A DNA stretch of 64,000 nt, taken from positions 124,001 to 188,000 of the forward strand of contig NZ_JADPJI010000002.1 of NCBI RefSeq assembly GCF_023073355.1, given 5' to 3'. This document shows positions 29,765-47,320 of the stretch, in pieces. How positions within the stretch are numbered: the first letter of the stretch is position 1; each line of letters starts with the position of its first letter. A model generated the notes under the pieces. It ran no database searches, was not told the DNA's origin, and saw only the letters and a list, made by a program, of their open reading frames with translations. The position numbers and the translations under genes were made by a program. Source of the stretch: Bradyrhizobium sp. 199 (GTDB taxonomy: Bacteria > Pseudomonadota > Alphaproteobacteria > Rhizobiales > Xanthobacteraceae).

Positions 29765-29833
29765 CAAGGCTGGCGCACCCGACACGATTCGAACGTGTGA
29801 CCTTTGCCTTCGGAGGGCAACGCTCTATCCAGC
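29765..29833. repeat. attL: left copy of the 69-bp direct repeat (tRNA-Arg 3' fragment)
   Basis: Identical over 69 bases to 47321-47389. It contains the tRNA 3' portion from the D stem to the encoded CCA but lacks the 5' acceptor strand, so it is not a functional tRNA gene. It marks the left end of the island. Confidence 0.93.
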
Positions 29834-29908
29834 AACACGAAAAATCGCTGCAAAATCAATGGTACCGCAAAGGAGGCCGGGCCGCAACCCGCTGCTTCGC
29901 AGCCGGTG

Positions 29909-29927
29909 TTGTGACAGGAGTGTGACG
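29909..29927. promoter_or_regulatory. Candidate integrase arm-type site, left end
   Basis: Two TGTGAC copies in direct orientation, separated by 5 bases (29910-29915 and 29921-29926), 77 bases inside attL. The right end of the island has the same arrangement with the same spacing. A role as binding sites for the integrase or an accessory factor is inferred. Confidence 0.5.
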
Positions 29928-30011
29928 CAGAAGGCGAGCTAGCGTGGATAAAAGCGAAACAATGCCATGCGACAGATTCGATGGTCTCACACCTCACCTC
30001 GCCGGTCCTGA

Positions 30012-30578
30012 TTAGCCAGTGAAGATATCTCCACTTTTCTTATGCACATTCAGTCGCCCGCTTGTTCCTCCTTTTCGGCTTCGCTTGCTAGTAGCGACCC
30101 TGGGCTGTTGATATGCAATGCGCTTTACGTTGTCCTCCCCTAGACCTCCTTCCTCCGACAATATCTTGAAAGCTTTTGTTCTAGACAACGGACGGTCTGC
30201 GTTGCTGTTCAGAAGCTCACTCCGATTGCGCAACACAATAGCTATCCGTTCGACTCTTCTAGGCTCTGCAATTCGCACCATCTGCCAATTATTACGTGCA
30301 ACTAACTCCTTGGCCACTTCGCGGAAAGGCCGACTCGTCAAGAAATCCAATCTGCGGACCACTTCGGAATTGCGCTCATTAAGATAATCGCTTGAGAGGC
30401 CGAACGTCACGGTTATGTGGTCGGCCTTCCAATGCCCTAGCCGTTTTACAAGAACGTGCCGCAATAGGCGGTAGGCGCGTCGAACGTCTTGTCTGTGATG
30501 GTTCCGCCAGCCGTCCATAGCTTCGAACAACATTGTTTGGGCGGTGCAATGCAACACAGCCGGGACTTCTATCCTCAT
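30012..30578 (-). CDS. Island protein of unknown function
   Basis: 188 residues from the ATG at 30578, chosen because a GGGAGGAAAA site precedes it. The protein is basic, with a C-terminal tail rich in Lys, Arg and Ser (RVATSKRSRKGGTSGRLNVHKK), so nucleic-acid binding is possible. No domain is recognised. It is divergent from the primase-helicase gene and could be a regulator or replication accessory of the element. Confidence 0.65.
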   Translation of the reverse strand: MRIEVPAVLHCTAQTMLFEAMDGWRNHHRQDVRRAYRLLRHVLVKRLGHWKADHITVTFGLSSDYLNERNSEVVRRLDFLTSRPFREVAKELVARNNWQMVRIAEPRRVERIAIVLRNRSELLNSNADRPLSRTKAFKILSEEGGLGEDNVKRIAYQQPRVATSKRSRKGGTSGRLNVHKKSGDIFTG

Positions 30579-30691
30579 TTTTCCTCCCGCTTGCAGCGAG
30601 CATCTTCGTTCATTCTCAAACAGAAAGCTGGGTAGTTCAGAATTCGCCAGCAAGCTGTCGTTGCGGCACCTATACAGCGTTTCTCTAGGCG

Positions 30692-33082
30692 ATGCTCAGA
30701 ATCAACCGAGTTCGCAATAAGGCAAGCGAAATGGTACCGGTTATGCAACATGACAAGAGATTGCTGTCCGCCAACCAAACTGCGGCTCGGAACGAAGCTG
30801 TCATTGCATTCGTCTCTTCTATCCACAAGCTCGCGCACGGGCTAAACGGAAAACTCGTCGTATGCGCATTCCATGAAGGGCAATCTGGCGTCGTGACTCA
30901 CCACGAAGTCGGGGACGTTAGTAGCACCGTCGATGCGGTAAGCGCCCACATCGACACGCAAGGCGCAAATGTCTACATGCCCCTTTGCGTGATGCGTCGT
31001 GATCTGCCACGCGGGAAGAAGGGCGGCGAAGCCGATGTTACCGCAGTGCTTGGTCTCGTTGCTGATATGGACGTAGACACAGGCAAGGTCGGTGAAATGC
31101 CGATTGTGCCCAGCTATGTAATCGAGACCTCACCAGGCAATTCTCAGCAAGCGATCCTGTTTGATAAACCTCTGTCACCTGAAGAGGCCAAGCCACTCGC
31201 CATCGCGCTGAAGAAGGCCAGCAACTCCGATCATGGCACGGCTGATATCTCGCATCTGTGGCGCGTTCCTGGTACGTTGAATTGGCCAACAAAGACGAAG
31301 CTTGCGCGTGGGCGGAGTGCTGAAGCGTGCCCGGTATTGATGCGGGAGCCATTCAGGGGGGCAGTCTACGGCGCCGCCACGCTTACTGCGGCGCTCCGCG
31401 AATACGTCGAGGAGTCCGAAATCAAAGTCGGTGAGGCTGGCGTCGGTGGCAAGATCGAGCCGACGGAAGTATGGCACCGATTGACGGATATTGCACGCGC
31501 GCACCTTTTGAGCGATGGGCAACCCAATCGATCGGACCATCTTGCGCGGATTGTCGAGCAGCTTCACTTCGAAAAGCTATCTTTGGATGAGACAAAAGCC
31601 GTTTGCTGCGAGCGGCTAGGCGCGTGGGCAGAGAAGTACGAGTCTGACAAGCGTATGATCAAAGATATCGAGCGAATCTGGCGCAAGTATCCGGCTGAAA
31701 AAGAGAAACAACAAGAGAGGGATGCGGAGGCGGGGAAAGCGTTTGTTGCTGCGCAGGTGACGGTTCCGCACGCTCGTCCCCCATTTCTGACGCCACCCAC
31801 CTTTGATCCGAAGCCTTTCCAGTTGTTGAAGCCGGGCGGCCTTATCACGGACGTTGCAAATTTTGTCCATGATACATCGCCGTCACCGATCCCCGAGTTC
31901 GCAATCACATCTGCCCTTGCGTTGCACGCGGCGATGTTTGGGCGTCGATTCCTGACTCCCGATGGGCTTGGTCTGAATCTTTACATCGCAAACGTTGCAG
32001 GCTCCGGCTTTGGCAAGGACCGACCTCTGAAAGCACTTGCACAAATTGCGGACGCAATCGACATGGGACACATAGTAGGTCCAAACGATGTGGCTTCGGA
32101 CTCGGCGATTGAAGTCATACTCCGGCAGAACGCCTGCCAGGTGTTGCCCCTCGATGAAATGGGAATCTTTTTGGGGGCTTCGGGCCGAAATTCCGACTCA
32201 TATCTGAGGGCTAGGCGCAAAGCCTTACTGGAGTTGTATTCGTCCGCTACATCGCCTTGGGTGGCTAAGGTGCGAGCATCGGACGCTGCAAATGGTAAAG
32301 AGCCGAAGCCGAAGATCATATGGCCTACCCTGTCTGTCCTTGGCGCAACTACACCGCCTACGTTCTATGAAGGATTGGAGGATGATGCGTTCGCTAGTGG
32401 CTTTATGGCTAGGTTGAACGTTGTTGCGGTCGATCAGCCACCTCAACGTCAGCGAATCAACGGGTACCCTGAAGTACCACGGCAACTCGTTGATCATCTA
32501 TTAGATGCCGTCAATGTGGAAGGAGGCACTTTCGCGGGGAAGGTCATAGCCGATCCCTATAAGAAGCCCAACTACTTGGTTGTACGTTGGTTCAATGACG
32601 AGGCGGCGCTACGCTTAGATCAAATCAGAGACTGGGCACTTCAGGTGGCGCTCGCTGACGAAAGGCGTGGCCAGATCGTCAACCGAGCTGGAGACCACAC
32701 TAGCAAGCTGGCGACGATCCGAGCAATTTCTCGCGATTCTAAGCGCCCGATGGTTACTGTTGATGATTTGGAATGGGCGTTCGGGATTGTTTTGCGCTCA
32801 ATCAAGACGGTCGAAGATGGTGCAGAGCGCTTCATGTCGGGTAGCCCGTTCGAAGCCCTTTGCAACGCCATCATAGAAGCCATCAGACAGTGCAGGGACG
32901 AAGACGGATTGAAGAACGCCGAGCTACTGCGGAAGCCGGGAGTAAAGCAAGCTGACACGCGGACTGTGGATCAGGCTCTAACACGACTAATTAGTGGGAC
33001 CGGGCAGGTCGTTAATGTTGGGAAGGAGCGTCTAGGACCTGGAGGAATGGGTGGACGCTATAAGCTGTCCACGGTGCACTGA
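30692..33082 (+). CDS. Primase-helicase of the mobile element (RepB-like primase plus DUF3987-like helicase)
   Basis: 796 residues. The N-terminal third resembles archaeo-eukaryotic-type RepB primases of mobile elements, with an acidic pair in LVADMDVDTG near residue 115 and the diagnostic SHLWRVPGTLNWP segment near residue 188. The C-terminal half resembles DUF3987 or phage-satellite helicases. Its Walker-A-like loop is AGSGFGKDRPL, where the usual K-T/S is K-D, and Walker B is VLPLDEMGIFL. The protein would prime and unwind DNA during excision-linked replication of the island. An 18-bp perfect inverted repeat begins at its stop codon. An ATG at 30731 is an alternative start. Confidence 0.82.
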   Translation: MLRINRVRNKASEMVPVMQHDKRLLSANQTAARNEAVIAFVSSIHKLAHGLNGKLVVCAFHEGQSGVVTHHEVGDVSSTVDAVSAHIDTQGANVYMPLCVMRRDLPRGKKGGEADVTAVLGLVADMDVDTGKVGEMPIVPSYVIETSPGNSQQAILFDKPLSPEEAKPLAIALKKASNSDHGTADISHLWRVPGTLNWPTKTKLARGRSAEACPVLMREPFRGAVYGAATLTAALREYVEESEIKVGEAGVGGKIEPTEVWHRLTDIARAHLLSDGQPNRSDHLARIVEQLHFEKLSLDETKAVCCERLGAWAEKYESDKRMIKDIERIWRKYPAEKEKQQERDAEAGKAFVAAQVTVPHARPPFLTPPTFDPKPFQLLKPGGLITDVANFVHDTSPSPIPEFAITSALALHAAMFGRRFLTPDGLGLNLYIANVAGSGFGKDRPLKALAQIADAIDMGHIVGPNDVASDSAIEVILRQNACQVLPLDEMGIFLGASGRNSDSYLRARRKALLELYSSATSPWVAKVRASDAANGKEPKPKIIWPTLSVLGATTPPTFYEGLEDDAFASGFMARLNVVAVDQPPQRQRINGYPEVPRQLVDHLLDAVNVEGGTFAGKVIADPYKKPNYLVVRWFNDEAALRLDQIRDWALQVALADERRGQIVNRAGDHTSKLATIRAISRDSKRPMVTVDDLEWAFGIVLRSIKTVEDGAERFMSGSPFEALCNAIIEAIRQCRDEDGLKNAELLRKPGVKQADTRTVDQALTRLISGTGQVVNVGKERLGPGGMGGRYKLSTVH

Positions 33083-33156
33083 TCCATCACCGGGTGACCG
33101 CATAAGCCGAGGCGAATGCCGCCGTCATCCATTCCGGTGGTCACCCGGTGATGGAT
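33082..33156. repeat. 18-bp perfect inverted repeat after the primase gene
   Basis: The arms atccatcaccgggtgacc (33082-33099) and its exact complement (33139-33156) enclose 39 bases. No T-run follows directly, so it is not a standard terminator. It could be a replication-origin element, a protein-binding site or an RNA structure. Confidence 0.7.
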
Positions 33157-33366
33157 GGCACCACCCAAAAGAACGCAAAAACGCCGGAGACTAATGTGGT
33201 TTTGCTGGTTGGTGTAAGGGTGTAAGGGCGGTTTTTTCTTACTCATTACAGCTTAGCAAAACAGCCCCAACACCAGCGCACCGAGCCACCAAGGGCGGGG
33301 CGCATTTGAACGGAACTATGAGACCAAAAACAGCGTGCTCGCTTCGGCAGGCGCGGCAGAACAGCC

Positions 33367-33948
33367 ATGGGAACGAGAATGACCAAAGTACCGAACGTTG
33401 AGGATTACAGCCTCGAAGTCCGAGAGGAAGTTTCGAAGGAAGACGATTTAGCTCTGCGGACCAAGGAAGCAGAGCAGCGGGCGTTGATGTTGCGGGACCG
33501 CCTTCAAGAAGGTCCGAGTAAGGAAGAGCGCGCGGCAGATGCTGAGCGTGCGGTTAAAGGCGAGCCGCTTGCCGATCTAGACAGCGAATTCAAGACGGCC
33601 CTTCGGGAGTTTCGCGCGCTTGAAGATGCGTTGAAGGCGCAAAAAGCCAAAGTGGTGGCCGTTCGGCGAGAAGCTGGTGGAAAGATGTGTGACGAACTGG
33701 TGGTGCCACTCTACGCTAAGGCAGAAAAGCGCTTAGCGTCGCTGCTCTTCGACCTCTACACTCAGCATTGCGAGATATTTCGGTTGAAGCGAGGCTTGTT
33801 AAACCAGGGTCTCGGCACCTATGGAGTATTCAGACTTGAACCAGAGTTCCTGGGCGTGCCCAACGGCACAAGCGATTTCGAAATCTTTCTGCGGGAATGC
33901 GTCAAAGCGGGTCTTCTCCGGTCGTTACCGATGGAATTTCCCCAATGA
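33367..33948 (+). CDS. Charged helical island protein, unknown function
   Basis: 193 residues (a start at the ATG at 33379 is also possible). The first 110 residues are highly charged and helical (for example EVSKEDDLALRTKEAEQRALML and FKTALREFRALEDALKAQKAK), consistent with a coiled coil. The last 80 are more compact. Its stop overlaps the prohead-protease start as ATGA, so the two are translationally coupled. Coupling to a capsid protease suggests an assembly-related or scaffold-like role, but no family is recognised. Confidence 0.7.
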   Translation: MGTRMTKVPNVEDYSLEVREEVSKEDDLALRTKEAEQRALMLRDRLQEGPSKEERAADAERAVKGEPLADLDSEFKTALREFRALEDALKAQKAKVVAVRREAGGKMCDELVVPLYAKAEKRLASLLFDLYTQHCEIFRLKRGLLNQGLGTYGVFRLEPEFLGVPNGTSDFEIFLRECVKAGLLRSLPMEFPQ

Positions 33949-34610
33949 CCAAGCGCGAGTATGAAATTGCGGCCGGACGGCCGCTCGACCTGGAATACGG
34001 CGGCGGTGGCTTCGTTTCGGCGGTAGATGGGAAGTCAATCAGCGTTGCTCAGCCGAATGAAGAGGTGCGGCAGCATTTACAGGGCTACGGACTTCGCTGG
34101 CGCACAATTGTCGAATACAAAGGTCAATTGATCTATTTCGAGCCGCACGCAATCAAAAATCCAATGTGGGGCGAGCCAAAGCGCCTGCTATTCGATCATG
34201 ACGAGAGCGAAATTTACGCAACGACTCAGAGCGGGCTGCAACTGCATTGCGACGACTACGGCCTGGCAATGCGGCTTGTTATCGGAAAAGATCCGAAGCG
34301 CCGGAAAGCATACGAAACAGTCAAGCGAGGCGAGCGCACCGCCCTTTCGGCTGGCCTGATCATGCACGGCGGAGAGTTCTTCGATATTGAAGGCGCTCGC
34401 ATCAAGGTGATTAAGTCAGCAACGCTTGAAGAACTGAGTCTTGTGCCAGTCGGGGCATGCAAACCCGCGTTCTGCGGATTGATCGACGCAGATGGCGCGC
34501 GCTCACTTGAAGACGACGCGGAGTCGCTTCGCATTCTTAAAGATAGTTCGGCTAACCGCGTCACGAAGGCGCTCGCCGCACTGCAAGAGGCACTTCGAAA
34601 CCGTCACTAG
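33945..34610 (+). CDS. HK97-type prohead protease
   Basis: 221 residues from the ATG at 33945. Prohead proteases mature HK97-fold capsids by trimming scaffold and capsid subunits. The family pattern is visible: His in LLFDHDES (about residue 85), Ser in ERTALSAGLIMHGG (about residue 135) and the ATLEELSLVPVGACKPAF segment, where the family normally has a conserved acidic residue. No major capsid, portal or terminase gene is present in the island. The protease therefore either acts on a helper phage's capsid or is a leftover. Confidence 0.82.
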   Translation: MTKREYEIAAGRPLDLEYGGGGFVSAVDGKSISVAQPNEEVRQHLQGYGLRWRTIVEYKGQLIYFEPHAIKNPMWGEPKRLLFDHDESEIYATTQSGLQLHCDDYGLAMRLVIGKDPKRRKAYETVKRGERTALSAGLIMHGGEFFDIEGARIKVIKSATLEELSLVPVGACKPAFCGLIDADGARSLEDDAESLRILKDSSANRVTKALAALQEALRNRH

Positions 34611-34769
34611 ATACGGGTGTGACGGTCAGCGCTCACGGCGTCCCGACGTTGAGCGCGGCGATATGGTGGCGGGGTGTCCGTTCCCGCCACCAGATCGTTG
34701 AGGGTGATTGAGCAGAGGGTCTAGAGCATTCTACAGAGACAGATGCGGCTAACACTGATCGGGGTGCAG

Positions 34770-36644
34770 TTAGCTCTTCTTCTTCTTGGCCTTTGATTGC
34801 TCGCGCTGATTCCCCCGTTCAGGCTTCGTCGAAACGCCAAGATCTTCGAACGTAACTTCGGTGGGCCGCAACACCATGTTTGGCAGTAGTTGGATGCCGT
34901 ACTTACTTAAGAGGCGACCGGGCGTGAACTTGCCCGCTGTATAATCGTTGTCCGGCTCGTCGTCGGCCGTTATCGTCACAACGAGAGCGCGGGACTTCTG
35001 CGTACGAAATATCTTTACCGAAAATCCCTCTGCCGAAAACATCTCGTCGCCGTAACCGCATGTTTTGGTATCTAAAAGTGTGGTCTCTATCGTCTTCTCA
35101 AGCCATCGCTGATTCTTCTGGTCCATCTGCTTGAGCTTCTTCACTCTGGAAAGCAGAACTTTCAACTGAGCATAAACAAGGTCGATGTCTTTATCCGGCT
35201 CACGAAAAATCATCCTAATAAAGCCGACGTTATCTTCTCCTACAACATCGACAGAACCGCCCTCGAAGATGCCCACCGAACAATTCGAGCATGATGCCCC
35301 CTTTTTGATCGAATTAGCATTAAAGACAGAGTGGACGTCGCCCGACGTAATTCCAAGGCCGTTCTGCACAAACCTTCCCGGAAAGAGGTCAGCTTCGTCC
35401 GTCGCTAGCCTCTGGACCATCTCGCTGTACGTTTTTGAGAGGCCAGACAGATCAGCCTTCATCGCCTCACCGAGCGAAGCGTAAAACCTCTCACTGCGAA
35501 TTAGGTCGTGCGAGTGAGTTGCGTTCGCGAAAGAGCTAGTCAGCTTTTGCTTCATTGCTTGGCGCTCATCGGCCGTCATTATCGGCAGAAAGCCCCACTT
35601 CCCATAAATGATGTTCTTCATTTTTTCAAAGGACGGATCGCCATCAGTCGTAAGACATGCCTTGTGGTATAGTTCGAAAAACAGATCATCGTATGATAGA
35701 GATCTGAATCCGTCGAAAAGATCCATTAAGGCCGCGTCCCTGAAGTACTTAATTGACGCTATGATTGGTTGTTGAACATACACCGTTTGAAAGCTTCGGA
35801 GGGGCTGAGCATCCGACAGCTTCTGCCTTCCCATGAATTCCGCCAGCGCCTTAGCGGAGAATTCGTCGGCCTGATCTTCGATTTTGATAAGCTTGGCTCG
35901 TTCCCGTTGAATAAAGTAGTTCTGTATTATCTGGTAGAACTCCCCAGCGTTGCCCGCGGTCAAATGACCCAACTCATGAAAAACTACCGGCGCTAACGAT
36001 GCCTTTATCACATAGTTCAGGCTCTGGAATTGCGCGTCATTGGCTTCCTTGAACACAGATGCGGCAATCGTGGACAGCTTACCGTAGTTGGATATCTCCG
36101 ATCTTGTAAGTTCAGTCTTGCCCTCTCTGTAAGTGATCTTAATACGATCGATGTCGCCAATTGCTCCTAACATCCGACTCGATCGATACGCCTCAAATAT
36201 AATCGTGTCCCTGGGAATGGCGGCTCTTAGGTTCAGAAGAGATATTCCGGCCAAGCTTGCTTGCACTCTATACCAAGTGTCTATATTCGCGTTGATTGCA
36301 AGATAGTCGATTAATTCGGAATCAATGAAAACGATATTCGGCAGTACCGCGGTCGCATTGTTCTTCAGTCTCTTCAAAATGCTGGCGGTTTCCATATCTT
36401 TGATGTCGTTCGATATCTTAGAAGACGGCACAAGGTAGATATGCAAGCCATCGGACGTGTAGGGTTCGTTTATGTGCACAGAGGTAAATTTGCTTCTGAC
36501 GTTTTCGGACTCGCTAAGCAATTCCCGGATCGGGGCGGAGTGAGTGTTGTCCAGCCGATCATTGACCAGAAGCTCGTCGAACCGCGCGTCAGCTCGACTG
36601 GCGATCAACCCGACGACGATACAAATGATAAGCGCCCGCCACAT
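34770..36644 (-). CDS. Exported zinc metallopeptidase-like protein (HELGH)
   Basis: 624 residues with a signal peptide (MWRALIICIVVGLIASRADA). The zinc motif HELGH lies at residues 223-227 in LAPVVFHELGHLTAG. About 35 residues later IEDQADEFSAKALAEF supplies an E..AD pattern like the third ligand of M48-type gluzincins. The C-terminal 300 residues have no recognised domain but include a CSNCSVGIFEGG segment with a Cys pair. Probably periplasmic. Five bases separate it from the small membrane-protein gene upstream on the same strand, so the two form an operon. The gene is AT-rich compared with its neighbours outside the island. Substrate unknown. Confidence 0.8.
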   Translation of the reverse strand: MWRALIICIVVGLIASRADARFDELLVNDRLDNTHSAPIRELLSESENVRSKFTSVHINEPYTSDGLHIYLVPSSKISNDIKDMETASILKRLKNNATAVLPNIVFIDSELIDYLAINANIDTWYRVQASLAGISLLNLRAAIPRDTIIFEAYRSSRMLGAIGDIDRIKITYREGKTELTRSEISNYGKLSTIAASVFKEANDAQFQSLNYVIKASLAPVVFHELGHLTAGNAGEFYQIIQNYFIQRERAKLIKIEDQADEFSAKALAEFMGRQKLSDAQPLRSFQTVYVQQPIIASIKYFRDAALMDLFDGFRSLSYDDLFFELYHKACLTTDGDPSFEKMKNIIYGKWGFLPIMTADERQAMKQKLTSSFANATHSHDLIRSERFYASLGEAMKADLSGLSKTYSEMVQRLATDEADLFPGRFVQNGLGITSGDVHSVFNANSIKKGASCSNCSVGIFEGGSVDVVGEDNVGFIRMIFREPDKDIDLVYAQLKVLLSRVKKLKQMDQKNQRWLEKTIETTLLDTKTCGYGDEMFSAEGFSVKIFRTQKSRALVVTITADDEPDNDYTAGKFTPGRLLSKYGIQLLPNMVLRPTEVTFEDLGVSTKPERGNQREQSKAKKKKS

Positions 36645-36649
36645 AATAT

Positions 36650-37126
36650 CTACTCCACCTGTTTATTGGTCGATGTCAGTTCGCGGCCGACTATGCTTTG
36701 AAAAAAGAAGCCGCTTTGGTAAGCGAACAGAAAATTCAGGAGGTCGCTGTTTGAAGCATCGAGCTTGCCGTATAAGCTCATCAGGACAATAGGAGTTATC
36801 ATTAGAGGGAAGAAAAGCCCTCTCAGTATGGACCGAAATAGGCTTAGCCGGCTCGCAAGTAGCTTTAGGATAATTTCGTCAGTCGCCGACAGTAGATCGA
36901 AGACAATCTTCGAGAATATTCCCACGACCGCTCCGCTTGCTAGCAACAGCGGATTTTTTGGATCTGCCTTGAGGAGTTCGGCGGTCGGCCCATCATTCAG
37001 ATTGAATTCCGTAAGGCTCTTGGAATGGATGAAGAGCTGCACGGCGAAAAACACTAGAGACAGAAAAAAAGCAGCTACCGCCAGTATCAATAATGAAGGA
37101 ATCCAGATTTTCGCGCGGTTCCACAT
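36650..37126 (-). CDS. Small membrane protein, partner of the metallopeptidase
   Basis: 158 residues from the ATG at 37126 (a TTG at 37141 is an alternative). Three to four membrane segments are visible: IPSLLILAVAAFFLSLVFFAVQL, LLLASGAVVGIFSKIVFDLLS and GLFFPLMITPIVLMSLYG. No family is recognised. Tight coupling with the downstream metallopeptidase suggests a membrane anchor, sensor or effector for it. Confidence 0.7.
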   Translation of the reverse strand: MWNRAKIWIPSLLILAVAAFFLSLVFFAVQLFIHSKSLTEFNLNDGPTAELLKADPKNPLLLASGAVVGIFSKIVFDLLSATDEIILKLLASRLSLFRSILRGLFFPLMITPIVLMSLYGKLDASNSDLLNFLFAYQSGFFFQSIVGRELTSTNKQVE

Positions 37127-37649
37127 CGGAGAATACCCCAAGGAAAAAGACCTGCTAGAAACGAACGCTGCCGAACCGCCCGCTAGCGGTCATAGCCACC
37201 CTAAGTAGATTACTTGGATCTTTAGCGAAATGGGAAGCCAAAGGTTCAGCCGGTCGGTCGTTAGAGATACAACCTCTTCTATCAGATGCAGCTCTCCCGC
37301 TAAGGGTCGCGCAATGTGTCAAGCGAAGCTGGTCTAAGGGCTGCGGCCGGGGGGGCGTTCGATCCCTAGCACCTAAGGGGCTTCGACCGGTCCATAGGAA
37401 AATTCACATATCCGCAAAATGGGGAATCTCGACCTACGGGACGCAGCTCTGAGGAGCTACCTACCCACCTAGAGACATGCTTATCCGTAAATTCACGGGG
37501 GTCGGCGCGCGGACTGAGCATCTAATCCGTCCTCTCACAGGAAATAAGGTGGATACTCCATAGATCTTTCCAAAGTTGCATTGATAGCCGGACTAGCGCA
37601 GTCCTAGAGTTGCGAACTTTGAAGTGATTGCGCCTGAAAGGTTTTCACC
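37127..37649. other. Intergenic region between the divergent cargo genes
   Basis: About 520 bases separating the membrane-protein/metallopeptidase operon from the divergent SIR2-NTPase gene. A short hairpin (agctctgaggagct, near 37446) is the only structure noticed. Both promoters should lie here. No RNA gene is supported. Confidence 0.4.
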
Positions 37650-40106
37650 GTGCCCGTTTCCGTTGATGACGTAATCAAAAGCTTGAGACCCGAGCGAACG
37701 ATATTGTTATTCGGTTCCGGCTCTTCAATGCCCTCCAACGCTCCTAGTGTTCAGGACTTACAAAGACACTTCGAGAGCAAATTCGGCATCTCCGCGTCTC
37801 AGTACAACTTGGCTGAACAGACGAGCATCATCGAAGTCAGCACAAGAGACAGGAAAACACTGATCGCGGAGCTTAGAACAAAATTTAAGGGCTTGGAGCC
37901 GACGGGCGCCCTGCTCAACCTCCCACTTCTGCCATGGAAATGCATATTCACTACGAATTATGACACGCTTATTGAAGATAGCTATAAGCGCCGTTCAGCG
38001 TCTTGCGCAGTGTATTCTTGCAATTTTGACTTTGGCGTAGATCGTGATCCCGATGCGATTCAGATTTTCAAAATTCACGGAACGATTGATAAAGATGTTG
38101 CTGACGGAAACAAGTCTCGAATAATCCTCACCGAAGGCGACTATGATCAAACTGCCGATTTCCGTGAGCAGTTGTGGGACCGCTTGCGCGCCGACATTGC
38201 TGGCAACCATCTAATCGTCATTGGGCACTCGCTTGCAGATCCAGACATTAAGAGTGTGGTTGATCGTGCTCTCGGCCTAATACAAAAGTCAGGAGGTGGT
38301 GGCCGGGTAACTCTCTTCTCTTTCACTCGCGACGACGGGCGCGCACTCTTATTTGAGTCGAGGGGTATCTCCGTTTGCTTCGGCGGCATTGATGACTTCT
38401 TCGCGGGGCTCACGACGCTGATTGTGCGCCCGCCGGTAGCAGCACCAGCCACCGGCGACCCTCTCGATGAGCAAGCAGGCTTAAGGCCAACAACTATCGA
38501 TATCGCTCACCAGGTAGCAACTGCCGCACCAAAAGTTAGTGCGATGTTCAATGGCTGGCCAGCATCTTACGCGGATATCGAAGCTGGCTACACATTCAAA
38601 AGGAATGTTGTTATCGCTATTGAGGGGCAGTTCTTTAAGTCTGACAAGCACATTGCTGTTGTGCTGGGACCTGCCGGCACCGGCAAGACCACCGCAGCTC
38701 GTCAACTGGCGACCAATTTGCTGCGAGCAAAGGTTTTTTGTTGGGAACACAAGCGCGAACAGCCTTTGCTTTCCGAAGCATGGAGGAAGGTAGCGCAATT
38801 TCTGAAGAGTAACGGATTAGTCGGCTGCTTGATAATCGATGAAGCTCATCTCGACTTGTCAGATGTTAACAAGCTCTCCGATTACCTAGCCTCTGACGCC
38901 AACGTGTCTTTGAAGCTCGTACTTATATCCTCTGTGAATCACTGGCATCCGCGAGTTAAGGTGCCGAGTCTGCACAAGGCCGCGCAAGAATATAATCTCA
39001 ATCGTGTTCAATCGAATGAAATTGATCGACTTCTGGACCTCGCGGAGCAGATAAAAGATATTCGCGATTTGGTCGAGCGAGGCTTTGCAGGGTTTTCGCG
39101 GCCGGAACGCAGGCGAAGGCTCACGGAGCGATGCGAAGCGGACATGTTTGTCTGCCTTAAGAATATTTTCTCATCTGACAATTTTGACGACATCATACTA
39201 CGCGAGTACGCGACTCTGAATCCGACACTTCAAGATGTATACAAGAGCGTTGCGGCTATGGAATGGGCGGGCGTTCACGTTCATCGTCAATTGATCATAC
39301 GTTTACTCGGCATAGGAGCTTCGTATGTCTCAAACGTAGTGACAGATCTCGCAGACATAATTCATGAAGAGACGGTAGATGAGCGTCAGGGGATATTTGC
39401 TTGGAGAGGGCGACACCTAGTGATCATGGGTATCATCGCTCAGCAAAAATACTACCTTGAAAACAGCCGGTTCGAACTTTTTAAGCGCGTTGTCGCAGCG
39501 ATTTCTCCAACGTATGAAATCGAGATTCGAACTATCCGAGAACTATGCAATGTCGAGACTGGCCTGGCGACGCTCACCGACAAGAGGGAGCAAAACATTA
39601 TCCTTAGGATGATGATTTCAACCGCTCCACGGGAACGGGTGCCACGGCATCGTCTAATGCGGAACCTAATCGCATTGGGCGAGTACGATCAGGCGGATAC
39701 AGAAATGCGTCTCTTCCAAAAGGACTTTCGCAGCGCCGATGGGCCAACCACACGATATAAGATCGACTTGGCAGTGGCCCGTGCGATACGCTCTCCGGGC
39801 TTAATGGACGAAGACCGCATAGTGCTTTTGGAAAAAGCGCGTGAAGCGGCGGCGGCGGCGGCGGAACGATTCGCAGTTAACAAAGCAGTTCTCACTGCAT
39901 ATTGCGAAGTAGGACTGGCGACGATGAAACTGACTCGCCGGCCTGACGTATTCTACGCGGCAATAGCGCAACTGAAAGACGCAGAGGACCAAACTGAGGA
40001 TACAGACATCAGCCGGCGGGTTGCTCGTCTTGAGGCACGAATGAGGAGCCTTGGTTCCGGCGTGGATGTGGACGTTGGACCAACCGAACTTGAATTTGAA
40101 GACTGA
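37650..40106 (+). CDS. SIR2-NTPase (STAND/Avs-like) defence protein
   Basis: 818 residues in three parts. Residues 1-260 are a SIR2-like NAD-consuming domain: FGSGSS near residue 21, TTNYDTLIEDSY with Asn103, KIHGTID with His143, and VIGHSLADPD near residue 190, so catalytic positions look intact. Residues ~310-520 are a P-loop NTPase with Walker A GPAGTGKTTAAR (about residue 340) and Walker B CLIIDEAHLD. The remainder is helical and repeat-like (a TPR-type look, for example KAREAAAAAAERFAVNKAVL). This effector-NTPase-repeat order matches STAND antiphage sensors such as the Avs group, which deplete NAD+ on sensing phage protein. Defence is inferred from architecture and island location. Confidence 0.88.
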   Translation: MPVSVDDVIKSLRPERTILLFGSGSSMPSNAPSVQDLQRHFESKFGISASQYNLAEQTSIIEVSTRDRKTLIAELRTKFKGLEPTGALLNLPLLPWKCIFTTNYDTLIEDSYKRRSASCAVYSCNFDFGVDRDPDAIQIFKIHGTIDKDVADGNKSRIILTEGDYDQTADFREQLWDRLRADIAGNHLIVIGHSLADPDIKSVVDRALGLIQKSGGGGRVTLFSFTRDDGRALLFESRGISVCFGGIDDFFAGLTTLIVRPPVAAPATGDPLDEQAGLRPTTIDIAHQVATAAPKVSAMFNGWPASYADIEAGYTFKRNVVIAIEGQFFKSDKHIAVVLGPAGTGKTTAARQLATNLLRAKVFCWEHKREQPLLSEAWRKVAQFLKSNGLVGCLIIDEAHLDLSDVNKLSDYLASDANVSLKLVLISSVNHWHPRVKVPSLHKAAQEYNLNRVQSNEIDRLLDLAEQIKDIRDLVERGFAGFSRPERRRRLTERCEADMFVCLKNIFSSDNFDDIILREYATLNPTLQDVYKSVAAMEWAGVHVHRQLIIRLLGIGASYVSNVVTDLADIIHEETVDERQGIFAWRGRHLVIMGIIAQQKYYLENSRFELFKRVVAAISPTYEIEIRTIRELCNVETGLATLTDKREQNIILRMMISTAPRERVPRHRLMRNLIALGEYDQADTEMRLFQKDFRSADGPTTRYKIDLAVARAIRSPGLMDEDRIVLLEKAREAAAAAAERFAVNKAVLTAYCEVGLATMKLTRRPDVFYAAIAQLKDAEDQTEDTDISRRVARLEARMRSLGSGVDVDVGPTELEFED

Positions 40107-40181
40107 CTGGCCAAGTACGCCCGAGCCGTGCAGCGGTCAGAAATGGCGCAACGCCAACTAGACTCTGCCATTTCAAATGCT

Positions 40182-40397
40182 TCAATCGTACCAATCTTTC
40201 CGATCACGCGGCAGCACTCGCCCGCGCGCGTAGCCAGGCGATGCAAGCTCTTGAAGACGGTGCTCAAGGTACTCGTTCGCCACGATCAGCGCTTTGACCG
40301 CTTCGCGCGCATCGCCACCGCAAGCGGCTATGGCTTGATCCGCCGCCACTTCGAGCGGATCGGGATCGGGCGGATGGCTTGGGGCGGAAACAGGCAT
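40182..40397 (-). CDS. Small Bradyrhizobium-type protein
   Basis: 71 residues. The core ADQAIAACGGDAREAVKALI followed by ANEYLEHRLQEL is a pattern common in small rhizobial accessory proteins of unknown function. Soluble, helical. A ribosome site is not obvious. It lies 75 bases from the SIR2 gene's end in convergent orientation. Confidence 0.7.
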   Translation of the reverse strand: MPVSAPSHPPDPDPLEVAADQAIAACGGDAREAVKALIVANEYLEHRLQELASPGYARGRVLPRDRKDWYD

Positions 40398-40454
40398 TTG
40401 GCGAGTGTACCAGCTTTGTTCTCGTTCGCAATATGTCCTATTGAGCTTTGCTGA

Positions 40455-40819
40455 TCAGTCCGACTTCCTCTGTTTCATGGAAACGAGCGGTAGCGAACGG
40501 TAAATTGTCATAGCGGCCTGTCCCACCTCTGAAGTGGGTGTGTGTCGCAATAAGAATGCAAGAGGCGTGTGGTGGATTTCAAGTCGCCAAGGTTCCGACT
40601 CTGCTCGCCGCGTGAAAGAGCGGCCAAGTTCAATCCTGAAAGAAAACCAGTTACCCAACCGACAAAGGTATTGTCGGCCCCGGTGGGGTCCGCCTTGTAA
40701 AGGCTGCTATACTGTCCGCAGGTTGCGGTACCTGCGCCAAGAGCCGCAACTTCAATCGAATTAGCGGAAGCGTCGGTGGCAGCCAGTAAGCAGAAGACTC
40801 CAGCAAGCCTATTCCGCAT
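40455..40819 (-). pseudogene. Frameshifted small exported protein
   Basis: It starts at the ATG at 40819 (AAGGAAAA site) with a signal peptide (MRNRLAGVFCLLAATDASA). The mature part includes GAGTATCGQYSSLYKADPT and WVTGFLSGLNLAALSRGEQS. The original frame ends early at 40508 after HSYCDTHPLQ, while the next frame continues with VGQAAMTIYRSLPLVSMKQ, which fits a normal C-terminus. One base appears missing near 40528. The pattern (Cys pair, GF.SGLN) is like small periplasmic proteins of Bradyrhizobium; function unknown. Confidence 0.65.
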
Positions 40820-40860
40820 TTTTTCCTTCGCGAAATTTGTCGTTGTGGCGCGTTTAGCAA

Positions 40861-41055
40861 TCAATACACTGTCCCCTCATTGTCTACGACCCGATAGGTT
40901 GCAGTGCCTATTGGGCGTTGCAGTATCGTCAGGTAGAAGCGGGCTGCCTGGTCGGCTTCTTCCTTGGTAAAGAATTCTTCCGCAATCGTGTGGATGCTGA
41001 TTCCGGCATCGTCGGGACCGTGCAAGTCAACCAACACAATTTGAGCTTTAAACAT
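40861..41055 (-). CDS. Small protein of unknown function
   Basis: 64 residues from the ATG at 41055 (MFKAQIVLVDLHGPDDAGIS). The frame extends further upstream, but this start gives the compact protein expected. EEFFTKEEADQAARFYLTIL looks like a helix after a beta strand. No recognised function; of the same small rhizobial type as its neighbours. Confidence 0.6.
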   Translation of the reverse strand: MFKAQIVLVDLHGPDDAGISIHTIAEEFFTKEEADQAARFYLTILQRPIGTATYRVVDNEGTVY

Positions 41056-41238
41056 TTGCACAATGTGGCACCATGCTTCGGATTTAGCCACCAAAGCAAG
41101 CTTATCCACGGTTGGTAGCCTCTTCGCTTCCAGCGGATAATTGTCCACACCCACCACAACGGGTAGGTCAATCGCATACGCACGACCAATAGATTGATAA
41201 TTTGATCAAGCCCGTCCGGTGCGCTTCTCTGTAGCGCG

Positions 41239-41651
41239 ATGACCACCAAATCCCGCGAATACCTCTACGGCACGCAGATAAGAATGTCGGCCGAACGCGC
41301 CAAGGAAGCGCGCAAGGCCGCTGACAAGCTTGCATGCGAAGCATGGAATTACCGAATGCTTGGCTACAAGGGACCCGCGCAGCCATTACCGACAATCGCG
41401 ACGCCATCAACGGCGGTTACCCATACTTGGAAGTTCGCTGCCTGGGCTGCAATACCAACCAAGCCGTAGCCTTGGAAATCGTTAGGCGCGCGAAGACGAC
41501 GCCGATTCATGAATTGGAGCGGTACTTGCGTTGCAAGGACTGCTCGGCAGTGCGACGCTATCCATATAAGCGAAGCGCATTGGTCGCGCTTCGACCAACG
41601 GAGATATCGGCTCGCCATCCGCCTTCAACTTGGTGGCCGGGAGAACGATAG
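41239..41651 (+). pseudogene. Frameshifted zinc-ribbon-like protein
   Basis: The first frame encodes MTTKSREYLYGTQIRMSAER and continues to YRMLGYKGPAQPLPTI. The next frame continues DAINGGYPYLEVRCLGCNTN, then VRRAKTTPIHELERYLRC and ends STWWPGER. Joining them needs one extra base near 41398 (PTI-G-DAINGG). The two CxxC pairs (RCLGCN and RCKDCS) form a zinc ribbon. The intact family is typical of Bradyrhizobium genomes. Function unknown; inactive here unless the lesion is a sequencing error. Confidence 0.7.
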
Positions 41652-41663
41652 GGAGAAGCATTG

Positions 41664-41996
41664 ATGTCCTTGACGTTGAATTTCCAATGGGAAGAGGCAC
41701 CGGGAGCAAAGACCCTAAGTAATCCGACTAAACCTCGCCCGGCCAATGAATTTGGCGACGCCCCGGCCGGACAGACTGCGCGCCAGTCGGCCTTCTATAG
41801 GAATTTGGTTCGACTCGCCGAACAGACTCAATCAAAGACACTTCCAATCGCATTCATGACGGCAGATGGCGTAGCAAAGCGAATGGATCACGGGTGCATG
41901 ACGATCGCGGCGCATGCGCGTTTCATAGAACCGCTTCAGAATTCGGTCAGTGGTGGAGTCGAGACCGTTACCTTGACTTGGAATCCATCGATCTGA
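41664..41996 (+). CDS. Small protein of unknown function
   Basis: 110 residues from the ATG at 41664 with a GGGAGAAG site. Soluble, no membrane segment; segments such as FYRNLVRLAEQTQSKTLPIA are helical. It lies 6 bases ahead of the SRAP gene and is probably co-transcribed with it. Family not recognised. Confidence 0.6.
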   Translation: MSLTLNFQWEEAPGAKTLSNPTKPRPANEFGDAPAGQTARQSAFYRNLVRLAEQTQSKTLPIAFMTADGVAKRMDHGCMTIAAHARFIEPLQNSVSGGVETVTLTWNPSI

Positions 41997-42002
41997 CGGC
42001 CC

Positions 42003-42662
42003 ATGTGCAATCTTTACAGCATCACCACGAACCAAGCTGCCATTGCCGCGCTCTTTCGCATCGTCAATCGATACGTCGGCAACCTCGCGCCAATGCCCGG
42101 CGTGTTTCCCGACTACCCCGCGCCTGTAGTGCGAAACACCGACAGCGGGACAGAATTGGCGCTTATGCGTTGGGGCATGCCGCCGCCGCCTCGCACAGGT
42201 GGTCCACCGGTCACAAACATTCGCAACACGTCATCGCCGCATTGGCGAGGATGGTTAAAGCCAGAGAACCGCTGTCTTGTCCCATTCAACAGTTTCGCCG
42301 AATACGCGTCCGAACCAAACCCTGAGACCAAGAAAAAAGACGTAGTATGGTTCGCCTTGAACGAAAACAGGCCGCTTACCGCATTCGCTGGCATCTGGAC
42401 CGTCTACAAGGGTGACCGTGGCACGAAGTCAAAACCGGTATCTGGCCCGCACAATGTTTATGGGTTTCTAACCACCACGCCTAACGGCACCGTCGAGCCG
42501 ATTCACCCCAGGGCAATGCCGGTGATCCTCACGACGGATGAGGAACGGAACGTGTGGATGCGGGCGCCTTGGGACGAAGCTAAGGCGTTGCAGAGGCCGT
42601 TAGCGGATGGTCGATTGATGATCGTGGGCCGGGGAGCGGAAAAGGAAGATCATGGCGTCTAA
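42003..42662 (+). CDS. SRAP-domain protein (YedK/HMCES family abasic-site shield)
   Basis: 219 residues. SRAP proteins link covalently to abasic sites in single-stranded DNA through Cys2 after removal of Met1, protecting them during replication. Conserved residues are present: Cys2 in MCNLYS, Asn72 in TNIRNTSS, Glu100 in NSFAEY and His168 in [11 protein letters not shown]. The gene is intact although several neighbours are decayed. Its last 11 bases overlap the start of the YaaC-like gene. SRAP genes are found on many mobile elements, possibly to protect transferred or replicating single strands. Confidence 0.92.
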
Positions 42663-43770
42663 CTCAGAAGGCATTCGGTTCTTAGAGAGCACTACAAATC
42701 TCAAAAAAGTTATCAAGCGCGTCTCGGGACGAACGCCTAGCACCGAAGTGGCGCGTGATATTTCCGCTTGCTTACAACAAGGGCGTCTTTTTTTTGATGC
42801 GGCAACGGCCTCGCCGCTACAAATACGGCCATTGCAATTGTATTACGGAATGGAGGGCTTCGCTAAAGCTATGGTCCTCGCCCGAACTCTCCGCTCCATT
42901 TCAACGCTTGTGCAATCGCACGGACTGTCCGACGTGTCAGACGATGCGACAACGATAGCGGGGATGAAAGTAAAATTTCTAGAAGCAGGTATTTTTCAAG
43001 ATTTTAATGACACGGTGGCGCAGTTGGGTGTCCTAAAGTACTATGACGGCTCAATGCCTAAGCAGGAAGCCAAGCCATTTGAGTCGGCTATCCGCGTGGC
43101 GGGCACCGAGACAACTTTAGAAGAGTTGCTGAGGAGGATTCCAAGCTTGCAACGATCATTCCGCCGCACGTTCGGTAATGATCCCCTGTGTTGGTCCGTT
43201 GACATCAATTACAATCACGGATTGGTCGATCTTAGGATCGATGACCCTATCCTGTTTGCGGGAAAAGACGGGTTACGCGATATAGTCGCAAAATGGCGAG
43301 CAAAATTTCCTTGGTTAAATAACTGGTGTTTTTCTCATGCAACTCTCGCCTGGAATAACTCTGTTCTGATTTTTACAAATAGAGAAAAGCCGCGATCTGG
43401 CGAGTTGGCCGATGAAAACCTAATTCAAGCTAACGACGGATTCTCTGCTAAAACCAATAACGAGAGTGGAGTGTACTGGCTTGACATTCTTCCTCCGCTA
43501 ACCGGAGGAGTAGAAGGTGATCGTTTGGCGATGATAGACAAGTTGAACGGAGTCGAACTCCCGGATTCCAGCATTCAATTTGCTGCGGCCTTTTTGCTGA
43601 GTTCGTTAGCTCGTTATCGTCCGCAGGTGTGGCAGCATGCGCTCTCGCATTCCGATACTCAGAATAAAGTCGCCGACGATGGAGCGCTTTCGCTCATCGA
43701 GGATTTCATGGAATCGGCTCTGAACAACTTTCCGACGCTGGTGCGGCAGGTAATTGATCCGAGCGTGTAA
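42652..43770 (+). CDS. YaaC-like protein
   Basis: 372 residues from the ATG at 42652, inside the end of the SRAP gene, with an AAAGGAAG site. The N-terminal third ([33 protein letters not shown], then KAMVLARTL and QSHGLSD) matches the YaaC-like family pattern of a helical protein with a HGL motif. Function of the family is unknown. The gene is richer in A and T than the SRAP gene, so it may have joined it recently. The overlap implies translational coupling. Confidence 0.65.
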
Positions 43771-43832
43771 ACGGTTCAATTGCGGATCGTTTTTTTGGAA
43801 CGAACGCTACCCTTCCGTCTTGAATCGGCCGT

Positions 43833-44713
43833 ATGCGTGGGAGTCCACCAGTCGGCGTAAAAGCCCGCTTCCCGGGCTTTATCGAACCCGCTTTAGCCAC
43901 CCTAATGGGTCGGGTACCGAGCGGGGATAGGTGGATTCACGAGATCAAATTTGACGGCTACCGCGTTCAAGTGCACATTGCGAACTCAGACGTGAAGGTC
44001 TTCACACGCCGTGGTCACGATTGGACACACCGCTTCCGCAAGATCGCGCATGACGCCTTCCAGGTAAAAGCTGAGACCGCGATTATAGATGGCGAAGTCG
44101 TCGTTCCCGCCGCCGACGGTACGACTGACTTCTCAGTTCTTCAGAATGAATTGAAAGGCCGGTCTACTAAAATCGTAATGGTGGCTTTCGATCTTCTGTA
44201 CCTGGACGGCCGCGATCTGCGCGCAGTGCCGCTCTTTGAGCGTAAGGCGTTACTGCGCAAGATCATCAGCGGGACAGATATTCAGTTTAGCGAAAGCTTT
44301 GAAATCGACGGCCATGACATGTTCAAGCACGCGTGCAAAACCGGCTTGGAAGGAGTCGTTTCGAAAGTCCGTGACGGTCGATATGAAAGCGGGAGAGGCA
44401 ATGTCTGGATCAAAGCGACGTGTGCCCAACGTGAAACGCTCGCCATCGCCGGATACGCTTTAGACGTACCAAGTGGGATGGCATGTACATCGGCCGTCGC
44501 AACGGCAGTGACTTCGTGTACGCCGGGAAAGTCGATCACGGCTTCTCGCCTGACGACGCCAAAGAACTACAGCGAAAACTCAAGCCTCTGGTACGAAGAA
44601 CCCAACCCTACACAAAATGCATTGCGCATCGCGGCGTTTGGGTCGAACCGAAGCTTTTGGCCGAAGTCGAATATCGTGCAAAGAGCGCCGAAGGGAAGTT
44701 GCGGCATGGGTAG
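43833..44713 (+). pseudogene. Frameshifted ATP-dependent DNA ligase (LigC/LigD ligase-domain type)
   Basis: The first frame (43833-44465) encodes the adenylation domain, with the catalytic Lys in EIKFDGYRVQ, motif III FDLLYLDGRDL and motif IV GLEGVVSK. One base appears missing near 44466. The next frame continues WDGMYIGRRNGSDFVYAGKV into the OB-fold domain (motif with YTKCIAHRGVWVEPKLLAEVEY). Stop at 44713 after EGKLRHG is also earlier than the usual C-terminus. Such ligases serve end joining or repair. No Ku gene is in the island. The gene is likely inactive. Confidence 0.8.
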
Positions 44714-44994
44714 AATGGGCGGAAAAGCCACCGAGTGACCGGCGTACGATCCCGGCTGAACTTTTCCACGCCGTCACGGGTCTGCCTGAGGTCGATCAGC
44801 TTGACCGGGAGAAAGTCAACGAAGCCGCGCGACAACAGCCTCCCGTTGTTTGGATTTACGAAGAAAGCGGCAAGAATATCGACGATGTCTATTGGGTGAA
44901 GGTCTTCGCCACTGAAGAAGCCCCCGACGCATGGCTCGCCGAAAACGATCCTGAAGGTGTCGTTTGGGCTTACCCTGTTCGAGGTGAGACTTAA
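44706..44994 (+). pseudogene. Fragment of a small Bradyrhizobium-type protein
   Basis: An open frame whose end (VVWIYEESGKNIDDVYWVKV, then DAWLAENDPEGVVWAYPV) is paralogous to the start of the next gene. No start codon suits the domain, and its beginning is fused to the ligase tail region, so it looks like a truncated or chimeric remnant. Boundaries are uncertain. Confidence 0.45.
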
Positions 44995-44996
44995 CC

Positions 44997-45362
44997 ATGG
45001 CGAGCATTTGGCTATACGTCAACGTCGAGAACGATTGCGTGAAGGTCTTCGCTTCGAGCGATTCGGCCGTCGAATGGCTTCGCGAAAACGATCCTGAAGG
45101 CGCGGCAGTTGAATATCCGATTGAGGAAGAACACGCGCCGTCGATCATACCGAAACGCTCAGATATTCAGACTCTGTTATCGGCGTTTCTGGAAGCTCGT
45201 TCTGTGTTGAGTCACTATCTCATCCCCGCCGTCCCACGGAGTGCAGAATTCACAGTAGAGAAGCTGATGGACGCACTCACGAATGACGATGTGTTAGCCG
45301 CAATCAGTCGGATCGAAGGGCGCCAGCGGTTTGGTCTAGTTGAAGTTGATTGCGCCACCTGA
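44997..45362 (+). CDS. Small protein with KVFAS..AAVEWL..NDPEG motif
   Basis: 121 residues from the ATG at 44997 with a GAGGTGAG site. Residues 1-46 (WLYVNVENDCVKVFASSDSA, then WLRENDPEGAAVEYP) repeat the domain of the preceding fragment, a type common in small Bradyrhizobium proteins. The remaining 75 residues are helical and unrelated. Function unknown. Confidence 0.6.
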   Translation: MASIWLYVNVENDCVKVFASSDSAVEWLRENDPEGAAVEYPIEEEHAPSIIPKRSDIQTLLSAFLEARSVLSHYLIPAVPRSAEFTVEKLMDALTNDDVLAAISRIEGRQRFGLVEVDCAT

Positions 45363-45442
45363 AATTCAACCTAGGTTTGGTTCACCGGATGGGAGCATGG
45401 TTTAGGATCGCAGGCGCCGATCAATTAATCGCCCGACAATCC

Positions 45443-45619
45443 ATGAACGTTCCTCGTTGCACACCATGCGAGACCATTCGCGAATTGGTCCGATTTGAGC
45501 CAGTGGCGGAAAAATACGAACTCCGCTCTTACGAATGTCCGTCATGTCGAAGCGTGTTGAACATGGTGGAGCGCAAAGAGCCGACGATGTTCCCGCGACA
45601 GGTCAGGAACTTATCCTGA
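45443..45619 (+). CDS. Small zinc-ribbon protein
   Basis: 58 residues from the ATG at 45443. CTPC near the N-terminus and CPSC thirty residues later make one zinc-binding site (MNVPRCTPCETIRELVRFEP, then SYECPSCRSVLNMVE). This family is frequent in Bradyrhizobium and of unknown function. A longer frame upstream (from 45350) overlaps the preceding gene and is unlikely. Confidence 0.65.
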   Translation: MNVPRCTPCETIRELVRFEPVAEKYELRSYECPSCRSVLNMVERKEPTMFPRQVRNLS

Positions 45620-45658
45620 GCGGGACTCTTTAGATCGATCCATTCGCAAGGATTGGTC

Positions 45659-46136
45659 ATGGCCATCGACGCATTCGCAGGCACCTCGCTGTTGTTTCTT
45701 CCTGAAAAGTTCTTCGTCGGCCGCTTGGAAGGTTGGGCGGTAGTCGAAAGCCTTGTTGGCGGGCTGCTTAAGCGCGCAAGCATCGCCGCCCATGGCGAAC
45801 TGGACGCGGATACTGACACAGTTGTTTTTACGGAAACCTATACCTTTGATGACGGACAGAGCGACACACTACGCTGGACGATCCACAAAAGCGGCGAAGG
45901 CCAATACACAGGGCTTCAAAATCGCCTAGAAGGCGAAGCCGTTGGCAAGCAAGCCGGTTGCGCCTTCCATTGAAAGTATAAGCGTGACACACCGCAAGGC
46001 GACGGGAAATCGATCAAGCTGAACTTCGATGACTGGTTTTATGCGATAGACGAAAAAGGCTTGCATCGTTCGGGGTAGCGCGGGGCGCGCGGGCATTCCG
46101 TTTGCGACAGCGCACGTTACGTATCGGAAGGTTTAG
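45659..46136 (+). pseudogene. Decayed DUF3833-like protein
   Basis: The intact family reads through from FLPEKFFVGRLEGWAVVESL to a C-terminus like FATAHVTYRKV. Here a stop (TGA at 45973 side, where the family has Trp after CAFH) interrupts it. The same frame then continues KYKRDTPQGDGKSIKLNFDD, and after a frame change near 46060 the next frame gives CIVRGSAGRAGIPFATAHVT and YRKV before a stop at 46136. Two independent lesions make this a clear pseudogene. Homologues are small soluble or lipoprotein-like proteins of unknown role. Confidence 0.78.
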
Positions 46137-46218
46137 GCAATCTGCCTCGTCGCTTACTTTAGCAATTGTTTGTTCCGGCGTTTGGGTCACGAACCCTGGA
46201 TGCTCCCGCAACGGAGTA

Positions 46219-47232
46219 TCATGCCGCCCGTCGTTCATTAGGGGGCGCCTTTGCGTTCAATTTGGAAAAGATCGTCTTCGACGCGGCGTGGGCATATTTT
46301 AGGAGCATTGTTGCATCCCGGTGGCCGCTTATCGCGGCGACTTCTGGGATAGTTAGCCCTAGTTCAAAAAAGCGACTGATTGCTTCATGGCGAAGGTCAT
46401 GAAATCGCAAGTCATCGATGCCAGCACGCTCAGTAATGCGATCCCAAGCTAAGTGTATCGCGTTCCCTGTCATGGAAAACAGGCGCCCGTCGATTGAAGA
46501 CCGACGTGGTAACGTCTTCACGGCGTGATGCGAAAGCGGAATTGTCCTCGCGTGACCGTTCTTGGTGACGGGAATTGTTAGAAGTCTCCTCTTAAGGTCG
46601 AGGTCCTTCCATTGCATATTTGCGATTTCGCCTCGCCTCATCCCCGTCGCGAGCGCAAATTGGATTATCTGCGAGATCGTGGGGCTTCGGCAAGAGCGAG
46701 TGGCCTTCAATAATCTGTTCAATTCTCCGGGGCGCAATCGGCGAGTCCGCATGCGCATCGCCGCCGAGAAGCCAAGCGCTTTGATAGGATTGTCTCTGAC
46801 CGGAATCGCCCAATCGCGCTTCGCAACTTCAAACATGTGTTGGATGGGGTTCAACTGTCGCTTGAGCGTTGTGGGCGCGACGAACGCCAAACGACGATCA
46901 CGATAACGCGCGAAATCGGCCGTACCCAATTGTGAAAGCGGCAATTTGCAGATGGGGTCGCGGAGCATCTGTGCGAGCACAGACTGTTCAATCTTTGCAC
47001 CACGCTTTTTGGGTGTCACTTCGGTGCGGTAGCGGCTGATCAGATCGGCCAAGGTTATTGTCTTGAGCGTACCAGTGTCGGCAGGCAGGTCGGAGCGGTC
47101 CGCCCGAATTTCCATTTGCCTCGCCCAAGTCTGCGCGTCCTTCCTCCTGAGGAAGGATTTGGACACGGCCCCAGCGCCTGCCCGCCTGACCTGAACCTGC
47201 CATTTTTCGCCTCGTTGCCGAATGGTCGCCAT
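46219..47232 (-). CDS. int: Tyrosine recombinase (island integrase)
   Basis: 337 residues. It would integrate and excise the island at tRNA-Arg. The N-terminal SAM-like DNA-binding domain is followed by the catalytic domain with Arg in [14 protein letters not shown], Lys in [23 protein letters not shown], the [14 protein letters not shown] box and its nucleophile Tyr. The gene starts 89 bases from the right repeat, the usual position for tRNA-site integrases. The C-terminus appears complete. No excisionase gene is recognised beside it. Confidence 0.95.
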
Positions 47233-47244
47233 GAATCGCCTCGC

Positions 47245-47261
47245 TGTGACACGGTTGTGAC
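47245..47261. promoter_or_regulatory. Candidate integrase arm-type site, right end
   Basis: TGTGAC at 47245-47250 and 47256-47261 with a 5-base gap, in the same orientation and spacing as the pair at the left end, between the integrase start and attR. It may also affect integrase expression. Role inferred. Confidence 0.5.
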
Positions 47262-47320
47262 AGCGAGCTTTTCGGTGGCTGGGGGGCCGATCTGGCTAAA
47301 AGCCTTTAAAACAAGGCTTC

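Follow-up and report, generated by a model that had tools for sequence, protein, structure and literature searches.

A tRNA-Arg island of Bradyrhizobium with a prohead protease and a helical partner gene: a probable phage satellite from a seemingly undescribed family

The window analysed in this study is a 64,000-nucleotide stretch of Bradyrhizobium sp. 199 (contig NZ_JADPJI010000002.1, positions 124,001 to 188,000), and its subject is a genomic island carrying genes for a primase-helicase, a charged helical protein (cc) and a prohead protease (S78). A sequence-only reading had described these three genes as neighbours at 30692-34610; all three open reading frames are present there, and the family matches and the structure model agree with that description. 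The unit drawn around them has turned out to be too narrow: the genes are real, and they belong to a complete island of 17,556 bp (29765-47389) in a tRNA-Arg(CCG) gene, which also holds an integrase, the tRNA attachment (att) site and defence cargo. The island is bounded by perfect 69-bp direct repeats (29765-29833 and 47321-47389). The left copy, at the end opposite the integrase, is a tRNA fragment corresponding to the 3' part of tRNA-Arg(CCG), with a partial Rfam tRNA hit at 29780-29837, and the right copy forms the 3' part of the intact tRNA-Arg(CCG) on the minus strand (47327-47403; 47321-47403 with the repeat). The gene adjoining the tRNA encodes a tyrosine integrase (46219-47232, minus strand; PF00589, 4.8e-28). 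The GC content of the island is lower, at about 0.53 against 0.64, and an empty site was found in the relative G1199, where a query made of the joined chromosomal flanks aligns in one piece (88%). The island is an integrated element with its own integrase and replication gene between att repeats and with no match to the capsid, portal and large terminase families tested, which is the gene content by which phage satellites are generally recognised. Chance can be excluded because the att repeat is perfect over 69 bp and because the cc-S78 pair recurs, with S78 directly downstream of cc on the same strand, in 35 of 38 cc loci. A conjugative or mobilizable element was also considered and was rejected, as general scans of the island proteins gave no relaxase or conjugation family.

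The primase-helicase gene (30692-33082, plus strand, start at 30692 or 30731) matches the DNA primase family phrog_3022 (5e-61). Its N-terminal half is RepB-primase-like (PF16793, 2.8e-4, just under its cut-off) and its C-terminal half matches DUF3987 (3.4e-7). The gene is followed by a hairpin with 18-bp perfect arms (33082-33156; DNA fold z -6.5), which may possibly be an origin-like site, where the primase would start, or a terminator. Strong hairpins of differing sequence (z -6.5 to -8.4) lie between primase and cc in four islands at the same site, those of the relatives being at about 8751-8810 of locus L006, about 9530-9590 of L070 and 10216-10527 of L057. Next on the plus strand is cc (33379-33948, start at 33367 or 33379), which encodes 189-193 amino acids and is predicted by AlphaFold2 to be an all-helical long rod (pLDDT 95.7). 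No credible Pfam or PHROG family was found for cc, and a sequence search of solved structures returned designed and generic coiled coils only. Searches of 50,697 phage records, of 72,556 plasmids and of the head modules in prophages of the same hosts gave no cc.

S78 (33945-34610, plus strand) matches the capsid assembly protease family Peptidase_S78 (PF04586, 1.6e-13), and its frame overlaps that of cc by ATGA at 33945-33948, the coupling which the sequence-only reading had noticed. The S78 model has its structural matches among herpesvirus assembly proteases, T4 gp21 and the proteases of phage head maturation, and a sequence search of solved structures with S78 gave no match. The residues H85, S135 and E163, corresponding to the catalytic H, S and E, are invariant across 28 homologues, from which the active site looks intact. 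Purifying selection acts on both core genes, with dN/dS of 0.07-0.22 where dS is unsaturated. In the S78 tree, the proteases of cc loci and those of prophages fall on opposite sides of one branch with weak support (76/31), and a ten-row group containing the S78 of the window is supported at 100/97.

The search for islands with the same genes, which had been proposed along with the satellite idea, has yielded recurrent cc-S78 loci and tRNA-anchored att sites. Within the genus, a cc profile has matches in 33 of the 266 genomes, and it also matches some other Hyphomicrobiales; a class-wide sample gave no additional members. A gene resembling the small terminase (TerS) is found within 10 kb of cc in 21 of the 38 loci, and HNH nuclease, tape-measure-like and fibre-like genes recur near some of them. 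A near-identical cc-S78-TerS locus with frameshifted cc and S78 is present in several species (L017, L071 and L072, in G024, G1206 and G1199), apparently a recently spread but broken member. Around another cc locus (L129, L055 and L130; G330:C1:5392401-5452400), almost 5 kb is repeated with a period of 18,321 bp, perhaps reflecting two tandem satellites.

The same tRNA-Arg att site is occupied by an island of 17,712 bp in B. stylosanthis (G335), by one of 17,498 bp in G1253 and by one in G1307 within which the contig ends. Each of these islands contains cc and S78 and an integrase 74-82% identical to that of the window, and yet the share of DNA that can be aligned between same-site islands is only 13-23% (15-23% when just the three complete islands are compared). 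Their primases have also swapped the helicase half (DUF3987 against AAA_25). The defence cargo also differs: the window has SIR2-STAND, G335 has DRT3a and DRT3b, G1253 has PDC-M36A, and G1307 combines a PDC-M36A candidate with genes for type IV restriction and NACHT. The reverse-transcriptase pair DRT3a/DRT3b of the B. stylosanthis island, with an adjoining gene for a trypsin-like protease, lies at 13444-17615 of L006. B. stylosanthis BR 446 (contig NZ_LVEM01000002.1) carries an intact copy of the element. The cc-S78 pair is part of the conserved core beside replication and stands outside the exchanged cargo. A fifth integrase relative, in G1207 (L161/L162; G1207:C1:6555001-6590000), is a decayed copy at the same tRNA-Arg with a frameshifted integrase and one att, without cc or S78. 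Directly after the G335 island there is a second integrase gene (L007, 4297-5770), so that islands are seemingly stacked in tandem at this site.

Element lengths were obtained by seeking repeats on either side of cc that lie 6 to 45 kb apart. Of the ten elements with a repeat at a tRNA gene (tRNA-Arg, -Asp, -Pro, -Thr or -Val), nine measure 15.8-18.3 kb (mean 17.3, standard deviation 0.7). The three complete tRNA-Arg islands (17,498, 17,556 and 17,712 bp) agree within 214 bp, while their segments vary by hundreds. This constancy is suggestive of a length set by a packaging limit, and common gene content could explain it too.

S78 proteases usually accompany HK97-type heads, and the corresponding capsid (PF05065), portal (PF04860) and large terminase (TerL, PF03354) families were sought by genome-wide family searches. 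In about 35 genomes none of the three was found near any cc locus; the matches that occur belong to separate prophages, at distances above 75 kb or on other contigs. Where a cc locus sits on a short contig (G1206, G1236 and G714 among others), a contig break may hide neighbours, a limit to which att-bounded elements are immune, and the att-bounded complete copies are without HK97-type capsid, portal or large terminase. This negative result covers the HK97-type families among capsid families. In the window island itself, Pfam and PHROGs scans of the proteins turned up no capsid, portal or terminase, in keeping with the earlier statement that such genes are missing.

On these grounds the island at 29765-47389 is probably a phage satellite of the integrative kind, whose family does not appear to have been described before. 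The idea of a self-replicating satellite which alters the capsid of a helper gains support from the relatives with TerS-like and HNH-like genes, from purifying selection and from the tight sizes; packaging and capsid alteration are what we infer from these. As to how it might work, a possible design, to which we give somewhat less than even odds, is one in which the satellite's own maturation protease and a dedicated coiled-coil scaffold would replace the scaffold-protease step of the helper and give heads with a fixed capacity of about 17.5 kb, for which the helper would supply coat, portal and large terminase. Excision of the island would follow infection by, or induction of, a tailed phage whose head is of HK97 type, and the island's own primase would then replicate it, possibly starting at the hairpin (33082-33156). 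The cc and S78 proteins would enter the procapsid of the helper, where cc may have a scaffold-like or size-determining role and S78 may cleave the scaffold and the coat protein. With coat, portal and large terminase coming from the helper, this would produce heads fitting the satellite of about 17.5 kb. In many relatives packaging might be steered by the satellite small terminase, in some together with the HNH nuclease; since the subfamily of the window has no recognised TerS, the choice of DNA for packaging would have to be made by the helper or by a gene as yet unrecognised.

Several observations weigh against this reading. One tRNA-anchored element, the tenth, is only 10.5 kb long, and the agreement among the three complete islands is statistically weak, as reshuffling of their segments gave an equally narrow range in 7% of cases. 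A Foldseek search with the cc model returned nothing under E 0.001, and it is from its context and its modelled shape that cc is proposed as a scaffold-like partner of S78. Further, over half of the comparisons had a saturated dS. The remaining points also count in favour of a non-packaged integrative defence island, moving by excision and by chance transduction or DNA uptake, in which cc-S78 would be an anti-phage module poisoning the capsid maturation of invaders. Neither TerS, HNH, pac nor cos was recognised in the window subfamily; no match to cc, S78 or primase was obtained in the IMG/VR viral contigs, in scans which mostly detect close relatives; and the whole genome of the window's host is without a PF05065, PF04860 or PF03354 match. 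Richness in defence genes also speaks for such an island. A defence island would leave unexplained the own primase, the tight size range and the TerS-like and HNH genes which adjoin the cc-S78 pair in many relatives, and the pair belongs to the conserved core by replication rather than to exchanged cargo; we consider such an island quite unlikely.

It is also conceivable that the satellite is packaged as concatemers in helper heads of normal size, with cc-S78 serving maturation or interference with the helper and not head size. PICMI satellites are known to package concatemers without capsid remodelling (PMC10803314), and cc has no recognised size-determining homologue. Yet redirection would need less than a maturation protease paired with a dedicated coil, and the tight length is less well explained, though a head of about 52 kb would hold three units of 17.5 kb. 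This arrangement deserves to be kept in mind as an unlikely one. Far less probable still is a prophage remnant from which head, tail and lysis genes were deleted and in which integrase, primase and protease were kept. The phage-type character of primase, integrase and S78, the tape-measure-like and fibre-like genes of some relatives and the decayed copy in G1207 would suit such a remnant, but the att repeats are intact, the length is nearly constant across independent copies, the frames are open and under purifying selection, and cc is absent from the phage records searched and from local prophage head modules. Relatives with full capsid modules, which would have marked the element as merely a deleted prophage, were looked for in about 35 genomes and no such relative was found. 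The deleted prophage was rejected on the integrity of the att site, the recurrence, the size and the lack of nearby head genes of the tested families.

The satellite reading can be compared with the known satellites, whose typical length of 6 to 18 kb (PMC11389934) the window island fits. Capsid-forming phage-inducible chromosomal islands (cfPICIs) resemble it as integrated satellites with their own replication gene and a prohead protease, and they share HNH and TerS genes with the relatives of the window element. In contrast, cfPICIs encode major capsid, portal, connectors and TerL (PMC10690885), of which the window element has none; a reduced cfPICI ancestry is possible. The other phage-inducible chromosomal islands (PICIs, including SaPIs) are likewise att-bounded, with integrase, primase and a divergent regulator position, and the window island lies within their size of about 10-18 kb. 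TerS is found in its relatives, and redirection of heads is the way of working proposed for its family. PICIs differ in redirecting heads by CpmA/CpmB, Ccm or Rcm, or packaging by TerS or Rpp, and an S78 protease paired with a coil was not met in the papers found. None of the PICI markers (AlpA- or Stl-type regulator, Rpp, TerS, Cpm, Ppi) was recognised in the window by Pfam and PHROGs, which are not PICI-dedicated models.

P4-like satellites share primase-helicase replication, integration in tRNA genes, defence cargo and, in Sid, a satellite-specific scaffold without sequence homologues. P4 measures 11-12 kb against the 17.5 kb of the window island. It uses Sid with the helper's protease-scaffold gpO, which it still requires for portal incorporation and maturation cleavage (PMC6893505), whereas the window element carries its own protease. 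The PICI-like element (PLE) of Vibrio cholerae is about 18 kb long, depends on a helper and makes small heads with its own scaffold TcaP (PMC10945586); it differs in that TcaP has no reported S78 partner and in that PLE 1 has a large serine recombinase (PMC6002521) in place of the tyrosine integrase found here. Head size is set in these precedents by the satellite proteins Sid, CpmA/CpmB and TcaP (PMC6893505, PMC5644958, PMC10945586), from which bringing its own protease would set the window family apart. In the open-access literature, no paper was found on phage satellites of Bradyrhizobium or on a satellite with a prohead protease but without a capsid.

The best-known phage satellites are those of Enterobacterales, Vibrio and staphylococci, to which marine and Streptomyces families have lately been added, and Bradyrhizobium is a genus of nitrogen-fixing plant partners. 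If the proposed design is true, protease and coil without a capsid would represent a new way of capsid takeover, and cc-S78 would provide a two-gene marker for finding further such satellites. The family would also be a vehicle which moves defence systems (SIR2-STAND, DRT3 and restriction modules) between these bacteria.

The remaining genes of the island flank this core. A 213-amino-acid protein (30012-30653, minus strand, likely start near 30578) is transcribed away from the primase and has a 65% identical counterpart at the same place in G335. No Pfam family was found for it in the scan; G1253 has at this place an XRE-type repressor, also transcribed away from the primase, and the protein common to the window and G335 may accordingly be placed in a regulator's position. 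Downstream of S78, the minus strand encodes a 624-amino-acid protein with a HELGH metalloprotease-like motif (34770-36644) and a membrane-like protein of 163 amino acids (36650-37141), neither of which gave a family above cut-off in the Pfam scan. The SIR2-nSTAND gene (37650-40106, plus strand; SIR2_2, 4e-22; nSTAND_NTPase5, 8e-13) is probably an anti-phage defence gene judging from its domains, and ThsA (PADLOC, 8.8e-21) and several SIR2 models match it only in part. It is followed on the plus strand by genes for an SRAP protein (42003-42662), which is common to the window, G335 and G1253 elements, for YaaC (42652-43770) and for an ATP-dependent DNA-ligase-like protein (43833-44738). At 44880-45100, two adjacent small genes have a common stretch of 78 bp with 73% identity, an apparent local duplication.

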